A DNA stretch of 21,066 nt from Saccoglossus kowalevskii (lineage: Eukaryota; Hemichordata; Enteropneusta; Harrimaniidae). Under the pieces are notes generated by a model that saw nothing but the letters and a program-made list of their open reading frames with translations, ran no database searches and had not been told where the DNA came from. Positions 9,897 through 20,538 of this stretch are shown in pieces. The stretch is taken from the NCBI RefSeq assembly GCF_000003605.2, contig NW_003134341.1, positions 90,757 through 111,822 on the forward strand. Direction: 5' to 3'. A program made the translations under genes and the position numbers. Position 1 is the stretch's first letter; each line of letters begins with the position of its first letter.

Positions 9897-9952
9897 AGTC
9901 ATTGCGTGTTTTTTTTTATCAACCATCTGATGTATGCCGATGACTTGGTTAT
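9897..9952 (+). pseudogene. LINE reverse-transcriptase remnant, piece 2 (catalytic YADD)
   Basis: The frame at 9921-9950 reads NHLMYADDLV, which contains the YADD catalytic motif of non-LTR reverse transcriptases. It is the block that should follow FNVYIDDLS of piece 1. A T homopolymer (about 9909-9917) probably caused a frameshift just before it. The reading stops at a palindromic insertion after GGTTAT. Confidence 0.75.
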
Positions 9953-9990
9953 TCCATGGACGTACTACGTGTTAGTACGTCCATGGTTAT
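9953..9990. mobile_element. 38-bp palindromic insertion in the LINE with GGTTAT direct repeat
   Basis: The arms CCATGGACGTACTA (9954-9967) and their perfect complement (9973-9986) enclose a 5-nt loop. GGTTAT occurs at both edges (9947-9952 and 9985-9990). Removing one copy plus the palindrome restores the LINE reading ...YADDLV-ILSPSIRGL across the site. The direct repeat is therefore a target duplication of 4-6 bp; the outer GG overlaps the palindrome end. Confidence 0.7.
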
Positions 9991-10030
9991 CCTTAGCCCG
10001 TCCATCCGTGGTTTACGAACCCTCGGTTAA
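9985..10030 (+). pseudogene. LINE reverse-transcriptase remnant, piece 3
   Basis: Reads ILSPSIRGLRTL in one frame, the conserved continuation after YADDLV in CR1-like LINEs. It ends at GGTTAA, where a second palindromic insertion begins. Confidence 0.65.
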
Positions 10031-10097
10031 TGCATGGACCACGGTTACTAGTAACCGTGCATGGACGTACTAACACGTATAGTACGTCCATGGTTAA
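10031..10097. mobile_element. Second palindromic insertion, double hairpin, GGTTAA direct repeats
   Basis: It contains a perfect 20-bp palindrome (10040-10059, CACGGTTACTAGTAACCGTG). This is followed by a hairpin with arms CATGGACGTACTA (10060-10072) and its complement (10080-10092), which is the same arm as in the 9954 element. GGTTAA occurs at 10025-10030 and 10092-10097. LINE sequence is not seen directly after it, so the outer boundary is less certain than for the first insertion. Confidence 0.6.
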
Positions 10098-10475
10098 AGG
10101 GGAACCGCTCCCCCCCCACTCAGGATCCATAGGGGCCGCATGCGCGTTCCCATTTTCTCGGGAAAGAGGGTACTTTTTGACGATCTGTCTCGGGAACATT
10201 TTCCCGAGAAAATCGTAGAAAAGGGGGTATTTTTTGCTTGTTTTCCCGAGATTCTCAAAATAGGGGGTGTATTTCAAAACACTTCCCGAGATATACAAAA
10301 AAGGGGGGTTTAAAAGGAGTTCTAGACTGAAAAGTTCCCTAGATAGGGGGTGAAATTCATCGGAAAAGCCCGTGAAAGGGGGGGTAAATTTTCTTCTTTT
10401 CCCTAGATAGGGGGGGGGCAAAAATGAGGGAACAAGCATAGGCCTCCCTAAATATAGGGAGTGGGGGGGGACCGC
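10098..10475. repeat. G-rich degenerate minisatellite
   Basis: Units of roughly 40-60 bp repeat the words TCCCGAGA or TCCCTAGA, then A-rich sequence, then a run of 5-9 G and TATTTT. At least six units are visible between 10155 and 10415. The ends carry related C8-ACTC (near 10110) and GAGT-G8 (near 10460) blocks in inverted orientation. The 148-codon minus-strand open frame here (to 9993) is a by-product: its translation is periodic (KKYPLF, KYTPYF) and unlike a folded protein. Confidence 0.7.
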
Positions 10476-13012: not shown

Positions 13013-14762
13013 AAAAAGACCTCCATGATCATTCTATGGCAGAGCCGATTTACTGGTATTGCTTCGAACATTTTCGAGCTGCTAAAATTACAAGGTTCGG
13101 AACCTTTTTCTCTTACCCGGATAAATACGGTAGTAGACTGACTCATCAACATAGTGTTATTGTCTTGCTATCTACAACGTTGCAACAAACATATCTTTTC
13201 ACAGAAATATGAATAATAAAATACACCATATTATTCCATATAAATACATAAAGATCAATATGAATTTTAAATATGCAGAGAAATGCATGATAGTTATTAT
13301 ACATAATTGAAACTTTTTCATAAAATGGGTTTCATTTTTGCCAAAAACATTAAAATCTTGACCAAACTACTGCCATCAAGAGCGATGTCTCTCCAATCAT
13401 GGATGTACTAACCTTGGTAACCAAGGTAGTACGTCCACGCTCTAATCCAGCTGATTGACATGAAAGTCGTTACTGGAGTTTTGGATCTAATTATGAAGTT
13501 TGATTGACTGTTGTTAAATGAAGACTTCCTAGCTCACTATGGAGCCCCATGATTGACGTTTTTTGAGATACTCCTAGAATCCAACTGGTATGGTCCGAAA
13601 ACTCATCACCCAATTTGAATAAACAATTGAAAGATAAATAAACAACCACCCGTCATATGCCAGCATGATAATACCATAAATAAACAAACAAGTCAATCAC
13701 TGCCGAGCCATCTCACTGCACACATGGAGTTCCATGCTACACCCCGTCAAATAATTTACTGAACTACATACAGTCCCTCTATAGGATTGTGACTAGACCA
13801 ACCAACAGAAGGGGAATCGCACGTGACGGCGCCCTTCTTTCAACGGAGTGTGTTTTGTCTCATTGCCGATTACATCGTGCTGGGAGTAACCGGTCCACAG
13901 CTAGTACATTATTTGAACATACACATCTATCCATAGATCTATGATCTATCCCACATCTGGTATGCGCAGCTTTACTCGTGTTTTCTACAGAGTTAATATT
14001 CAAATTACAGGGGACCCTTTTGAACTTTCCTCTTTGTTTTGTTTTTTTTTCCTGACGGAGAGCAATGGCAGACTTTTCTATTGTATCCATTTTTGGTCGG
14101 CGTTTAAGGCATTGTTATTAACGAGTACGACATCATCACCCTATAATCATCGTTGTCGTGAGAACTGCAGTATTAGTATTAGACCAGATCTTCCATCCCT
14201 GTCGTACATCTCGACTCTAAACTACACCACTAAAATATTAAAGTTAATAAATAAATGTCAAAATTCTTGACAGAAAAATAATATCGCCAATATTCAAAAA
14301 AAAACAAAAAACAGAATTTCTGTGAAGATAGCACGAGCGTATCTAACAACCATGTTTACATCGCCATCTTTAAAGTGACCTGACTCGTAGATTACGCGAC
14401 AACCTGATTGTGAAAATTCATGGTACATGAATACTAATTAGGGCAGTTTGCACGCTTAGAAACAGCTTAAAACGAGAGGCACAATAACACTGTAGTAAAT
14501 AAATCTATCACTATCACTCATTGTGATTTTCAGAGCGTTCGGTGTCTTGTATAACATGAAAAGAATATATTGATTTCCGTATACGTCAAAGACATCGACG
14601 AAAAACCGTAGCTCAAAAATGCTGTTTTAACAACATTTTTTATTCAAAAGTTCTGTATAAATGCGGTAGTGGGAATTATGTTTACAGATATTGTGTACAT
14701 TAAAAAGTATTCATAGCAAGAACATAGCAAAACACACAATGACAATGAGCCTTGGTCACATT
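13013..14762. other. Intergenic, no gene seen
   Basis: AT-rich, with several short open frames lacking motifs and one hairpin listed separately (13401). I see no LINE continuation, RNA gene or promoter of note. Confidence 0.5.
13401..13436. repeat. Palindromic hairpin related to the 9954/10060 elements
   Basis: GGATGTACTA and TAGTACGTCC (one mismatch) enclose CCTTGGT-A-ACCAAGG, so nearly the whole 36 bp is self-complementary. The outer arms match the GGACGTACTA arms of the palindromes near 10 kb. No target duplication is visible. Confidence 0.65.
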
Positions 14763-16941: not shown

Positions 16942-17560
16942 GTTCACCACCCTTGCGCCCCATAGAATAAAATATTTTGTTCAGTTCCATGGAATAAACA
17001 ATGTATTTTACACGCTTTGTAGACGTCACAATAAGTCCCATATTGAACAGAACGCAACAAGACGATCTCCGCTCTTTTAGTGCATTTCTACCGATCAGTT
17101 TATACACAATTGATGACGATGTTTGAGACGTCCAGGGTGTGGACCGGCTTCCCATTTCAACATAAACATACTATATATGTATGATTTGTAGTGTTTTAAT
17201 TACATAGGTTAGCTCAATCTGTCTTGGACGAGCTTTTACAGTTATCTCTGGCTGGCAGTTACCCACTCGGCTTTCACAATACAAAAGAACAGAAAAAGTG
17301 AAACAATAGTTAGCAGCATACGTCTTCGCGTCGACGGTCAATCTGGCACTTCAAACAGAGGCGCGTCGCGTATATTGATATTGATCAAATAAGGTCAGCC
17401 CGAACTAAATCGGTCTAACTGCTCGGCGTCACACGACATCTCATGTAGGTCACGAGATCATTAATAGGGTCGGGTGAACACGCGTCGTGATTGATCGCGT
17501 GAATGTATGTAGCAATATCATCACAATAGTAAACACGACATAATTTGCATATAGACTAAA
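16942..17560. other. Intergenic, upstream of the dioxygenase gene
   Basis: No gene recognised. Close to the downstream gene it holds an octamer ATTTGCAT (17543-17550), which may be part of its promoter. No TATA box is placed 30 nt before an obvious start. Confidence 0.45.
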
Positions 17561-17620
17561 ACAGTTAAATAGTGAAGGGCACTCATTCTAAGATTATTCT
17601 TGCCTGCATTGCGTCGTACA

Positions 17621-17701
17621 TCAGTCAGAAATCACTGAGTAAGCTCTGGTTGCCATTGTTGCTGAACTTATCATTAGAAGTCTTCAACACCAAGCAATAA
17701 G
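17621..17701 (+). other. Predicted 5' non-coding exon of the EctD-like gene
   Basis: It ends at CAATAAG|GTATGT, a good splice donor at 17702. It starts, by guess, at the initiator-like TCAGTC at 17621. It contains no ATG, so no upstream ORF would precede the coding exon. Confidence 0.5.
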
Positions 17702-18180
17702 GTATGTTATATAGTTCAATGTCATTTTATTTTGTGTGTTGAATGATTTTTCGTTTTTAAAACCTTAAGATTAACTTTAACGAGACAAACAAATACAGTT
17801 TTTAAACATAATTCCAGGCATGAAACGAAATCAATGTTAAATGCCACAAACAATTCTAATTCTATTCAAAAAACGCTAACGAATCTGGACATGTGTCAGT
17901 ATTTCTTACAAATGTAAGAACTGTTGCGCCGAATAATAATACTGTGTAATAATTTCTGGAAAATTCAAATAAGATTGTTTCGTCATGGCCCTTTTAAAAG
18001 CTGCCTTGCCTTGACATGAAGAAATGAAATTCGTGGGGCTATGGTGTTTTTTCTGTCGGTGTGTGTGATTAAATTCTGACCCCCGTCACACACAGCATTT
18101 CCATCGGAGCAAATAAAGCTGTGATGTTATTTAATAGGTAAATCGACACTGCTCATTCTTTCTATCGTTTTTCCCAATAG
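17702..18180 (+). other. 5' UTR intron of the EctD-like gene (479 bp)
   Basis: GTATGT donor at 17702 and a pyrimidine-rich TTTTTCCCAATAG acceptor ending at 18180, 14 nt before the ATG. Another AATAG near 18136 is a weaker alternative acceptor. Confidence 0.65.
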
Positions 18181-18194
18181 ATCACCCTTGAACC

Positions 18195-19268
18195 ATGTCA
18201 TACCCTCGTCTCTTCGGTTCCGTGCAACGAGTGCTCAGCAGAACAGCTTTGCAGAACACAAGATCATCAACCATCAAAGGTACCAGTCTGCTAGCTGCTG
18301 TCTCCAGAAGAGCACTAAGCGCCTCAGTGGTAACAGACCATTATCCGACGCGTAAATCTGTTTCGGGGTTATATCCACGTGTTGATCCTTGGTTTTGGGA
18401 AGATAAGAACGGTGTTAGACCGACAGGACCCATAACTGATGCGCAACTCAAAGAGTATGATGAAAAAGGATACTTCGTAATGCCAAACTTTTTCTCGCAA
18501 GAGGAGATACAACCGGTAATCGATGCAATATACAAACATAAAAATGCGATTGAATCCAGCCTTAAAGACGACGAAGATCCAACACTCACTCCAGAAATTT
18601 CGTATTCAACCGAACCAGGAACAAAAAGACTACGGAGCCAGTTTGGGTTACACAGACAGATGCCTGAACTGAACGATATTTTAAAACACAAGAGAATTAT
18701 ACAGTATGTTCGACAGATATTAGCTGATGACGTCTACATTCACCAAGATTTGGTTAACTTCCATACTGCATTTACTGGGATTGGTCATAACTGGCATAGC
18801 GACTTCGAATTCTTCCACGCCGAAGACGGTATGCCGAATATGAGAGCTATGTTTTGTTCTATAATGTTGACCAAAAATACCCCAGATCGAGGTGCAACGA
18901 TGGTTATACCAGGCACTCACAAAATATTTGTCGGTAATCCCACTGAAACACCAAAGAATCAACTTGGAACTTCTTCCAAATATAAAATTGAAGCTGGGGA
19001 AACCGATCAAAAGTTGTTCACTGACTTAGCTAATAAGTACGGTATTGAATATTTAGTGGGTGATGCTGGGTCGGTTGTCTTTTGCGATATTAATGTTTTG
19101 CATGGTAACCATACCAACATGTCTCCCTGGGATAGATTGAATCTATTGCCAGTTTATAACAGCATATCAAACAAAGTTGGGAAACCGTTTAGTGCACCAT
19201 GGGAAAGAAGACCTGAATATATTGCTACACGCAATAAGGAAAACATAACCCCTATTCCGTACCAGTGA
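18195..19268 (+). CDS. Ectoine-hydroxylase-like (EctD/ThpD-type) Fe(II)/2-oxoglutarate dioxygenase, mitochondrial
   Basis: Single uninterrupted 357-codon frame; the ATG has A at -3. Residues 1-45 are Arg/Ser/Ala-rich with no acidic residue (SRRALSAS at 37-44), a typical mitochondrial presequence. The remaining 310 or so match the usual EctD length of about 300. Iron ligands are H201, D203 and H303; R314 fits the 2-oxoglutarate carboxylate ligand. The block WHSDFEFFHAEDGMP (200-214) nearly equals the EctD signature (WHSDFETWHxEDGMP). Other EctD-like blocks are VRPTGPI (74-80), DVYIHQ (179-184), RAMFCSIMLT (217-226) and VYNS (320-323). The family hydroxylates substrates such as ectoine using O2 and 2-oxoglutarate. 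Three residues that I recall as ectoine contacts in bacterial EctD map to Q184 (kept), F207 (Trp in EctD) and L318 (Phe), so the substrate may differ. Ordinary PHYH-family paralogy is the alternative, but the EctD block argues against it. No other ectoine genes are nearby. Confidence 0.93.
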   Translation: MSYPRLFGSVQRVLSRTALQNTRSSTIKGTSLLAAVSRRALSASVVTDHYPTRKSVSGLYPRVDPWFWEDKNGVRPTGPITDAQLKEYDEKGYFVMPNFFSQEEIQPVIDAIYKHKNAIESSLKDDEDPTLTPEISYSTEPGTKRLRSQFGLHRQMPELNDILKHKRIIQYVRQILADDVYIHQDLVNFHTAFTGIGHNWHSDFEFFHAEDGMPNMRAMFCSIMLTKNTPDRGATMVIPGTHKIFVGNPTETPKNQLGTSSKYKIEAGETDQKLFTDLANKYGIEYLVGDAGSVVFCDINVLHGNHTNMSPWDRLNLLPVYNSISNKVGKPFSAPWERRPEYIATRNKENITPIPYQ

Positions 19269-19340
19269 ACAATGAGACCTGTGACATTGTATATCTTAAT
19301 GTGTACGAATTTATAAAAAATAATGTCTTATTACATTATA
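19269..19340 (+). terminator. 3' UTR with candidate polyadenylation signals
   Basis: A TATAAA variant signal lies at 19312-19317, about 45 nt after the stop, and A/T-rich sequence follows. A canonical AATAAA occurs only much later (19835-19840). Which is used is unknown. Confidence 0.35.
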
Positions 19341-20538
19341 TTATTAACTTTGATATTCACACATGACCTTATGGCGACGACGCTAGATATTATTTATAAT
19401 AATTATTGTATTACTGAGTTTATGCATGCAGTATATATAGCGCATGCGCAAAAAATAATGCACAATAGAATATACTAGTAGATAAAATAACGCGTTTTTA
19501 CTTTGCACTAACCTTGTCTCGATCAACGCTTTTGCTGTATTTTACAATTGTTTACTAAAATGTCAGTTTTGTCCGTTGTCGAACAGATTTTCTGTTTTAA
19601 TAGAGTGGTTCAGTTTTCTTTTACAGGAAACCGAGCTTTTTTTTGTGACAATGTTAGCCAGAATACCACTAAATGTATTTACAGATTTTACTTGTTTTCA
19701 ACTTATATGTTTATTACTTGAGTATATGGTATCTGGCAATAGAAGTAGCTTAATTTTTATTGACTATTCCTTTACCTTATAGTCAACTTTTCAGAAGCTG
19801 CTTTATCATGTATTATACTTTATCCCACATTTTGAATAAATAGAAACTAGAGCAATATCCAACTGTCCGATGAGTGTCATATGCACATCTTCACAACACA
19901 ACTTTAAATTAAAGATGAGCTGGTAAACACTGTAAACATTGTTTACTAATCACTCTGTCCCCTTCAAGCCAACAGCCAGGGAACAGCCCCTGACAAATCT
20001 TACCTGTAATGCTGAAAAATGTTGCGGTCTTTGCTGTTAATCTCTTTTAGTACATGCTATCTTCTCCTTTCCAACTTCTAAACGCTCAAATAACACATCA
20101 ATTGCTATTGCTACGTTCACACGACAGCATTTTATCAGAGCCCTACGGCTCGAGCCGGCCCGAGCCATCAAAATGGCCGTGTATACGAGTTCGGCTCCAA
20201 TAAACCCTCGGGGTTGAATTCCGATATGGTTGAGACCCGACATGGCCCCGACCGTGTATACGCATCACACGGAGACTATTGGATCCCAAATCACGCCCTC
20301 AATCGTCTTCTTCAAGTTACCTCTCATTTCAATTATGGCGGAGACAACATCTTTCGTAATTTCCCGCTTGACTAAGAGATATACGTTCTAATATATACTT
20401 GACAGAGCAAAGTATTACTGCGATAGATTGATATCTCAACGGGAAACAGAAATCAAAGAAAGCTTAGAAAGAACTCCCATGTGCTGAGAGTATTGGAGAC
20501 ACATTAAATATTATTTGAAATTACTTAGCTGAAAACTA
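19341..20538. other. Intergenic, no gene seen
   Basis: AT-rich. A 75-bp-spaced direct repeat CCGTGTATACG (20177-20187 and 20252-20262) lies in a locally GC-rich patch (20140-20275) that also has a GCCAT/ATGGC hairpin. It is probably a dispersed repeat, and the ORFs across it are not supported. Confidence 0.45.

Follow-up and report, generated by a model that had tools for sequence, protein, structure and literature searches.

An EctD-lineage hydroxylase gene, its two relatives and EctC-like genes in the genome of the hemichordate Saccoglossus kowalevskii

Ectoines are regarded as microbial protectants, and only recently have their synthesis in protists and ectA/ectC-like sequences in deuterostomes been reported. 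For bacterial ectoine hydroxylase (EctD), passages of PMC3979721 name H146, D148, and H248 as iron ligands of the V. salexigens enzyme (VsEctD) and describe F143-P159 as a strictly conserved stretch that separates EctD from proline- and phytanoyl-hydroxylases. Parts of PMC6890836 list Q127, H144, T149, W150, R280, and L284 as the SaEctD residues that contact hydroxyectoine. Reports of ect genes in eukaryotes include ectA- and ectC-related sequences in Branchiostoma floridae and Saccoglossus kowalevskii (Harding et al., as cited in sections of PMC5924519 and PMC5796728). Here, we analyze a 21,066-nucleotide stretch of the S. kowalevskii genome (hereafter, the window; C2592:90757-111822, on a contig of 561,846 bases in an assembly of 572 Mb and 4830 contigs that shows animal features) and describe an intact gene of the EctD lineage within it.

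The reading we prefer, with a probability of about 0.6 for the whole, is that this gene encodes a mitochondrial Fe(II)/2-oxoglutarate hydroxylase, descended from bacterial EctD via an old transfer, present at three loci, and with ectoine or one of its close cyclic analogues as substrate. The features of the locus are as follows.

17702..18180, forward strand: putative intron of the 5' untranslated region (5'-UTR), from consensus matches (donor-like AATAAG/GTATGT at 17702; acceptor-like TTTTTCCCAATAG ending at 18180)
18195..19268, forward strand: single-exon coding sequence of an EctD-lineage Fe(II)/2-oxoglutarate hydroxylase (open reading frame, profile matches, tree, and solved relatives)
18195..18326, forward strand: predicted mitochondrial presequence, residues about 1-44 (composition, amphipathic segment RLFGSVQRVLS, low model confidence)
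18786..18836, forward strand: EctD signature block, residues 198-214, HNWHSDFEFFHAEDGMP, in which F206/F207 replace the Thr-Trp pair of bacterial EctD
18795..18803, forward strand: iron ligands H201 and D203 (HxD), by alignment to VsEctD H146/D148
19101..19103, forward strand: third iron ligand, H303, by alignment to VsEctD H248

The gene, its lineage, and its copies

The open reading frame (ORF) runs intact from ATG to stop as a single coding exon of 357 codons plus the stop, exactly where a sequence-only reading of this DNA had placed it. Its product matches the PhyH family (PF05721; 91.4 bits, E 1.3e-25) and, far more strongly, the ectoine hydroxylase model of NCBIfam (TIGR02408; 237.2 bits, E 2.2e-70, profile positions 1-274 of 277). 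The top solved relatives are EctD structures (PDB 3emr, E 4.9e-57; 4mhr, E 1.2e-53), with trans-proline hydroxylase H11 as the second-best fold family. The family match claimed by the sequence-only reading is thus far beyond chance. A structure model has a mean predicted local distance difference test (pLDDT) score of 81.4.

Phylogeny places the protein with bacterial EctD, as the sequence-only reading had anticipated. In a tree of 81 rows (3 animal, 65 bacterial EctD, and 13 other PhyH, with no eukaryotic EctD or PHYH rows), a branch with 100/100 support unites the animal rows with bacterial EctD, to the exclusion of the other PhyH rows, and the three animal rows form their own clade at 100/100. 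A 40-row tree agrees, again joining animal and bacterial EctD at 100/100. For these analyses, bacterial rows at least 75% identical to a kept row were removed, reducing 95 rows (L020-L022 included) to 34; L022, L072 (long branch), and L138 and L160 (second hits to genes already represented) were left out before the final tree, and the C3666 copy was represented by its C-terminal open piece only. When the animal protein was used as query at an E threshold of 0.001, 75 of 392 Planctomycetota genomes gave some match (12 places at 139.5-203.8 bits, the next at 79.9), as did 55 of 398 Pseudomonadota genomes (27 places in 22 genomes at 145.6-210.5 bits, the next at 98.2). The upper-scoring rows (34 fetched) carry WHSDFETWH, and the lower-scoring rows (11 fetched) carry WHQD. 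Bacterial EctD proteins are 33-41% identical to the window protein, with none above 41% among the matches listed.

A standard eukaryotic PHYH/PHYHD1 paralogue whose residues resemble EctD by chance would also fall in the PhyH superfamily, as the window protein does. We reject this very improbable explanation given the 100/100 join with EctD, in trees free of eukaryotic PHYH rows, and the genome's other PhyH pieces (L004-L006, fragments), which do not match the window protein at E 0.001; nor is the protein closer to PHYH/PHYHD1 than to EctD. Judged by alignment and tree, the gene belongs to the bacterial EctD lineage and not to the ordinary PHYH genes. Because a gene of this lineage resides in an animal genome, horizontal transfer from bacteria, as first proposed for this locus, is the natural reading, and an ancient transfer is the best one; we infer its direction.

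The donor is a different matter. The animal clade stands at the base of EctD, and holding bacterial EctD together with the animals outside costs 0.03 log units (P value of the approximately unbiased test, p-AU, 0.429). Joining the animals to a 16-row clade with Marinobacter, Modicisalibacter, and Salinisphaeraceae costs 9.19 log units (p-AU 0.281). Both groupings were picked after viewing the tree, neither is rejected, and both placements are compatible with the data. Without an outgroup, the animals sit beside a small Modicisalibacter/Marinobacter/Salinisphaeraceae clade at 82/83, which is not a strong branch. A long stem leads to the animal clade, and the tree program warned that long branches come together, which could produce false joins. 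We therefore name no bacterial donor, and the marine bacterium originally suggested as the source finds no support here.

The genome holds three EctD-like loci: the window gene on C2592, a copy at C1340:916602-917462 (reverse strand; 954-kb contig), and a copy at C3666:11298-12161 (reverse strand; 23-kb contig). The C1340 copy is 49% identical to the window protein and the C3666 copy 67% over its C-terminal piece. Pairwise dN/dS among the copies is 0.14-0.17, with dS of 1.32-2.93, near saturation; these rates thus mark the copies as old duplicates kept under purifying selection. In all three, a pyrimidine-rich sequence resembling a 3' splice site (consensus match) lies 11-15 bases before an ATG: TTTTTCCCAATAG in the window, where it ends 14 bases upstream of the ATG, and TTTATTTTCAG and TTTTGTTCAG in the relatives. 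Together with the donor-like site at 17702, the acceptor-like site ending at 18180 points to a 5'-UTR intron at the window gene, and since such acceptor-like sequences precede the ATG in every copy, this intron may predate the duplications. The sequence-only reading had called the locus spliced, which would hold for the untranslated leader and does not hold for the coding sequence.

These copies also bear on whether the gene is foreign DNA in the assembly. The assembly is fragmented, and the adjoining 20 kb on the window's right side are N, leaving right-hand continuity unreadable; both would suit bacterial contamination or a chimeric contig. This explanation is nonetheless very unlikely, and we reject it, because three diverged copies lie on three contigs, each with a splice-site-like sequence at the same place before the ATG. 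Moreover, GC content is 41.7% in the ORF and 38.7% in the window, bacterial EctD reaches at most 41% identity among the matches listed, and no ect gene besides EctD was seen in the readable adjoining sequence. A scan of 17500-19500 for bacterial promoters and terminators gave 3 promoter-like sites (7.5 expected in shuffles) and 2 terminator-like sites (1.1 expected), and therefore no sign of a bacterial unit. A search of phage records returned no match, and a scan for viral contigs confirmed nothing. Residence in the animal nuclear genome, as the sequence-only reading had it, withstands the contamination that had been set out as its possible undoing.

The N-terminus of the protein extends beyond the EctD domain. 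Residues 1-45 contain 7 basic and 0 acidic residues, with RRALS preceding the conserved YPTR, and the structure model has pLDDT below 50 at residues 1-42, with order from about residue 50. The N-terminal segment has a hydrophobic moment of 0.75 (mature part: mean 0.29, SD 0.13). The C3666 copy begins similarly, with a net charge of +5, so that two of the three copies have presequence-like starts. The simplest reading of this N-terminus would be a mitochondrial presequence, and the animal EctD relatives are probably mitochondrial.

Signature residues and EctC-like genes

The iron-ligand triad is complete, as had been claimed: H201, D203, and H303 align, in EctD register, with H146, D148, and H248 of VsEctD. 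The signature is another matter. The window block HNWHSDFEFFHAEDGMP is identical at 12 of 17 positions to VsEctD F143-P159, a stretch described as strictly conserved; the corresponding blocks are YTWHSDFEIFHAEDGMP in the C1340 copy and HSWHSDFEIFHAEDGMP in the C3666 copy. Three of the five window differences (F to H, T to F, and W to F) fall at positions where the 127 bacterial EctD rows examined show no variation. All of these rows (119 distinct) carry F-x-WH(S/A)DFE-TW-H-x-EDG, with WHADFE in L020 only, and none has the animal residues at the F, T, and W positions. In all three animal copies the F is replaced and the TW pair has become (F/I)-F. The census rows were gathered by similarity, with the non-EctD rows L021 and L022 excluded. 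At least 80 came from a scan whose patterns held parts of the same motif and are therefore not a free sample; 34 came from the searches of two phyla with the animal protein, 2 of them re-hits of genes already included. Thus the "nearly full" EctD signature first ascribed to this protein does not stand, although the ORF, the family match, and the iron ligands do.

Among the six SaEctD contacts, with register set by alignment, the window protein keeps three (Q184, H201, and R339), has I343 for L284, as VsEctD also has Ile there, and replaces T149 and W150 with F206 and F207; the full set is thus absent. Retention of the Gln and Arg does not point to ectoine in particular, since H11 keeps both. 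EctD ancestry is shown, and ectoine as the substrate is not thereby established.

The same genome encodes EctC-like proteins. Five matches to the EctC family (PF06339) lie on two contigs, at C349:123708-124097 (forward strand) and on C3528 at about 300.5-301.2 kb (reverse) and 302.6-302.9 kb (forward). They include two uninterrupted frames, 278 and 257 codons long, that each encode two EctC-like domains in tandem (C349 and C3528; double-domain frames at L010:1141-1890 and L011:1468-2214, respectively), and a third copy, broken by stops, that adjoins the C3528 copy in opposite orientation. The two double-domain proteins are 54% identical to each other. They score 110.5 and 115.7 bits on PF06339 (cut-off 27), and 111.1 and 118.6 bits on NF009806, below its cut-off of 128. 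Compared with 11 bacterial EctC rows, their C-terminal domain shows 27-36% identity. The motifs Y-x-N-H-x-E, Y..D-K-H, and C-V-F, whose residues presumably bind metal or substrate, are retained in it; missing are the Trp that in those rows precedes S-x-R and their FS-x-(H/N)-x-T motif. The N-terminal domain is 16-25% identical to bacterial EctC and lacks Y-x-N-H-x-E and Y..D-K-H. A PDB search with the C349 protein matched solved ectoine synthases to its second domain (best E 1e-14). TALE-repeat chains also matched residues 72-114, which we take as chance, with no stretch passing alone.

Substrate and pathway

On the preferred reading, a bacterial EctD gene would have entered the animal nuclear genome long ago and later been duplicated into three loci. 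The protein would be imported into mitochondria, where it is predicted to bind Fe(II) through H201, D203, and H303, to use O2 and 2-oxoglutarate, and to hydroxylate, at a ring carbon, a small cyclic zwitterionic solute, either ectoine or a close cyclic analogue. The double-domain EctC-like protein of the same genome would be its likely partner.

Several observations weigh against this account. The curated equivalog cut-off of TIGR02408 (336.5 bits) is missed by the two copies with the whole domain (237.2 bits for the window and 247.9 for C1340) as well as by the C-terminal piece of C3666 (211.5); four divergent bacterial rows picked for comparison likewise fall below it (263.7-333.4). The T-W pair is replaced throughout the animal copies. 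The structure model rests on a bacterial EctD alignment, which biases it toward an EctD-like outcome. The N-terminal amphipathic score is exceeded once in the mature part (0.85, its maximum). The window copy alone gives an uninterrupted frame from ATG to stop. In the assembly, a single in-frame TGA interrupts the C3666 copy, and translation from the ATG of the C1340 copy meets a stop, with the enzyme in a different frame. These breaks may be real lesions, unseen splicing, or assembly errors. The donor-like sites by the two paralogues are weak.

The rest of the pathway also counts against it. A search of the genome with the EctA model (TIGR02406) gave 0 matches; in 7 of 14 control genomes the model does ring, at scores under its cut-off. 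For EctB there was only a 50-position match with an internal stop (E 5.9e-5, below cut-off), and the model is not specific, since it rings in all 14 control genomes. Both searches read the genome exon by exon, ignoring introns, and parts of the genome are N, so that EctA and EctB are unseen rather than absent. EctA and EctB profiles, each built on 61 bacterial loci, turned up no convincing match in the window and 22 pieces around the host EctC/EctD loci (one 16-position EctA match, E 0.38; EctB, 0). Absence of EctA and EctB near these loci does not follow, because among 16 flank pieces four are all N (L123, L124, L125, and L134) and four are 42-96% N (L122, L127, L128, and L133). The ectA/B/C homologues suggested as a check on this locus are therefore represented by the EctC-like family, with EctA and EctB unseen. 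The proposed osmolyte role draws support from that family and loses some through the unseen EctA/EctB and the replaced, substrate-contacting T-W pair.

Ectoine itself and a shifted substrate are about equally likely. A true ectoine 5-hydroxylase in a complete animal pathway would require EctA and EctB to be intron-split or hidden in unreadable stretches, and the T-W replacements to be tolerated. The EctC-like genes, the ectA-/ectC-related sequences reported from the same species, the mitochondrial targeting signals that passages of PMC5924519 describe on Halocafeteria ect enzymes, and the kept equivalents of Q127, H144, and R280 (with Ile for L284, as in VsEctD) all suit this explanation. It is well short of an even chance: exon-by-exon searches found neither EctA nor EctB, and the T149/W150 equivalents are replaced in 3 of 3 animal copies versus 0 of 127 bacterial rows. 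A neofunctionalized EctD descendant acting on another substrate is possible, if likewise well short of an even chance. That substrate could be a proline-like five-membered ring such as glutamine-derived 5-amino-3,4-dihydro-2H-pyrrole-2-carboxylate (ADPC), made by a changed EctC-like double cupin without EctA or EctB. The shared (F/I)-F replacement, the F that H11 likewise has where EctD has T (WHQDYTFWH), and the residues lost from the C-terminal half of the EctC-like proteins fit such a shift, as does the conversion of glutamine to ADPC, at very low efficiency, by the EctC of H. elongata (passages of PMC5924519). H11, however, retains the Trp that the animal copies lack, and these copies retain the N-terminal YP(T/S)R...RxDP block typical of EctD. 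We know of no natural ADPC hydroxylase, and ADPC is described in PMC5924519 as a synthetic solute, which makes this reading speculative. In addition, bacterial genomes with a solitary ectC and no recognizable ectA also lack ectD, as stated in part of PMC3979721, so that an EctC-EctD pair alone has no bacterial precedent. A little less likely is a deuterostome EctC-EctD type pathway, in which a double cupin and a mitochondrial hydroxylase, both changed at conserved and probably substrate-side positions, would make a hydroxylated cyclic amidine osmolyte other than hydroxyectoine, again without EctA/EctB. Overall, animal residence, the EctD lineage, and transfer remain of the initial interpretation, together with part of the osmolyte role, and a nameable marine donor finds no support.

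If the preferred reading of an acquired, mitochondrial EctD descendant is true, an animal lineage acquired and kept part of a bacterial osmolyte pathway with an altered substrate pocket. The animal EctD clade combines purifying selection, presequence-like N-termini, and coexisting EctC-like genes. This opens a direct question: is ectoine, hydroxyectoine, or some new cyclic solute present in the animal, and does the window enzyme make it? No description of an animal EctD lineage appeared among the matches listed in open-license literature (titles and abstract openings, a scope outside which Harding et al. falls), and "ectoine" does not occur in the main text of PMC13342648.

Other observations and comparison with known systems

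Four observations stand apart from this argument. L020, from a Rhodococcus qingshengii plasmid and annotated only as a phytanoyl-CoA dioxygenase, has the motif FxWHADFETWHxEDG and falls within actinobacterial EctD. Its TIGR02408 score of 316.7 bits lies slightly under the cut-off, and it is probably an unrecognized ectoine hydroxylase. To the left of the EctD-like gene, an exon of a flavin-dependent oxidoreductase (Pyr_redox_3) lies at 872-1672 of the window (reverse strand). The contig has a second copy of this exon roughly 16 kb farther to the left (L121:5284-6018, reverse strand), with identical letters in the stretch compared, marking the pair as a local duplicate family. Palindrome-like stretches, CCATGGACGTAC...GTACGTCCATGG, seen by eye at about 9950-10100 and 13400-13440 of the window, resemble copies of a short repeat or of a mobile-element terminus. 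Lastly, the mitochondrial contig C4830 (L137) has cox1 on the strand opposite nad1 and cox2. Taking the protein contexts used to be conserved, ATA fits Ile, AAA fits Lys (nad1 ADGVKLFIKEP), TGA is Trp, and AGA fits Ser (one informative nad1 site), with AGG absent from cox1, cox2, and nad1. ATA as Ile, AAA as Lys, and AGA as Ser is a combination that fits hemichordates; echinoderms read AAA as Asn. A hemichordate is the probable source on this code, in agreement with the ect-like sequences reported for Saccoglossus.

Among known systems, animal PHYH and PHYHD1 have the PhyH superfamily fold in common with the window protein. Trans-proline hydroxylase H11 and the leucine hydroxylase GriE are 24-31% identical to it, in matches that start only at residue 76-79 and leave the EctD N-terminal block uncovered, and H11 has WHQDY, not WHSDF. 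The Branchiostoma and Saccoglossus reports resemble our findings in placing ect-type genes in deuterostomes, and the EctC-like genes described here fit them; in the passages that cite them they name ectA and ectC, not ectD, whereas our searches recovered EctD-like and double EctC-like genes but no EctA. The EctD of Halocafeteria seosinensis, as described in parts of PMC5924519, is likewise eukaryotic, mitochondrially targeted, of the EctD family, encoded by an intron-bearing gene, and thought to be a bacterial acquisition. It differs in belonging to a protist with a whole ectABC-ectD-ask set. The window protein differs from bacterial EctD/ThpD (EC 1.14.11.55; PDB 3emr, 4mhr, and 4q5o) in its modest identity, its replaced signature F, T, and W, its score below the equivalog cut-off, its predicted N-terminal presequence, and its residence as a multi-copy animal nuclear gene with no ectABC cluster seen alongside. 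It shares with these enzymes the fold, the iron triad, YP(T/S)R...RxDP, WHSDFE, EDGMP, and the substrate-side Gln and Arg, and among the tests run they are its closest lineage.
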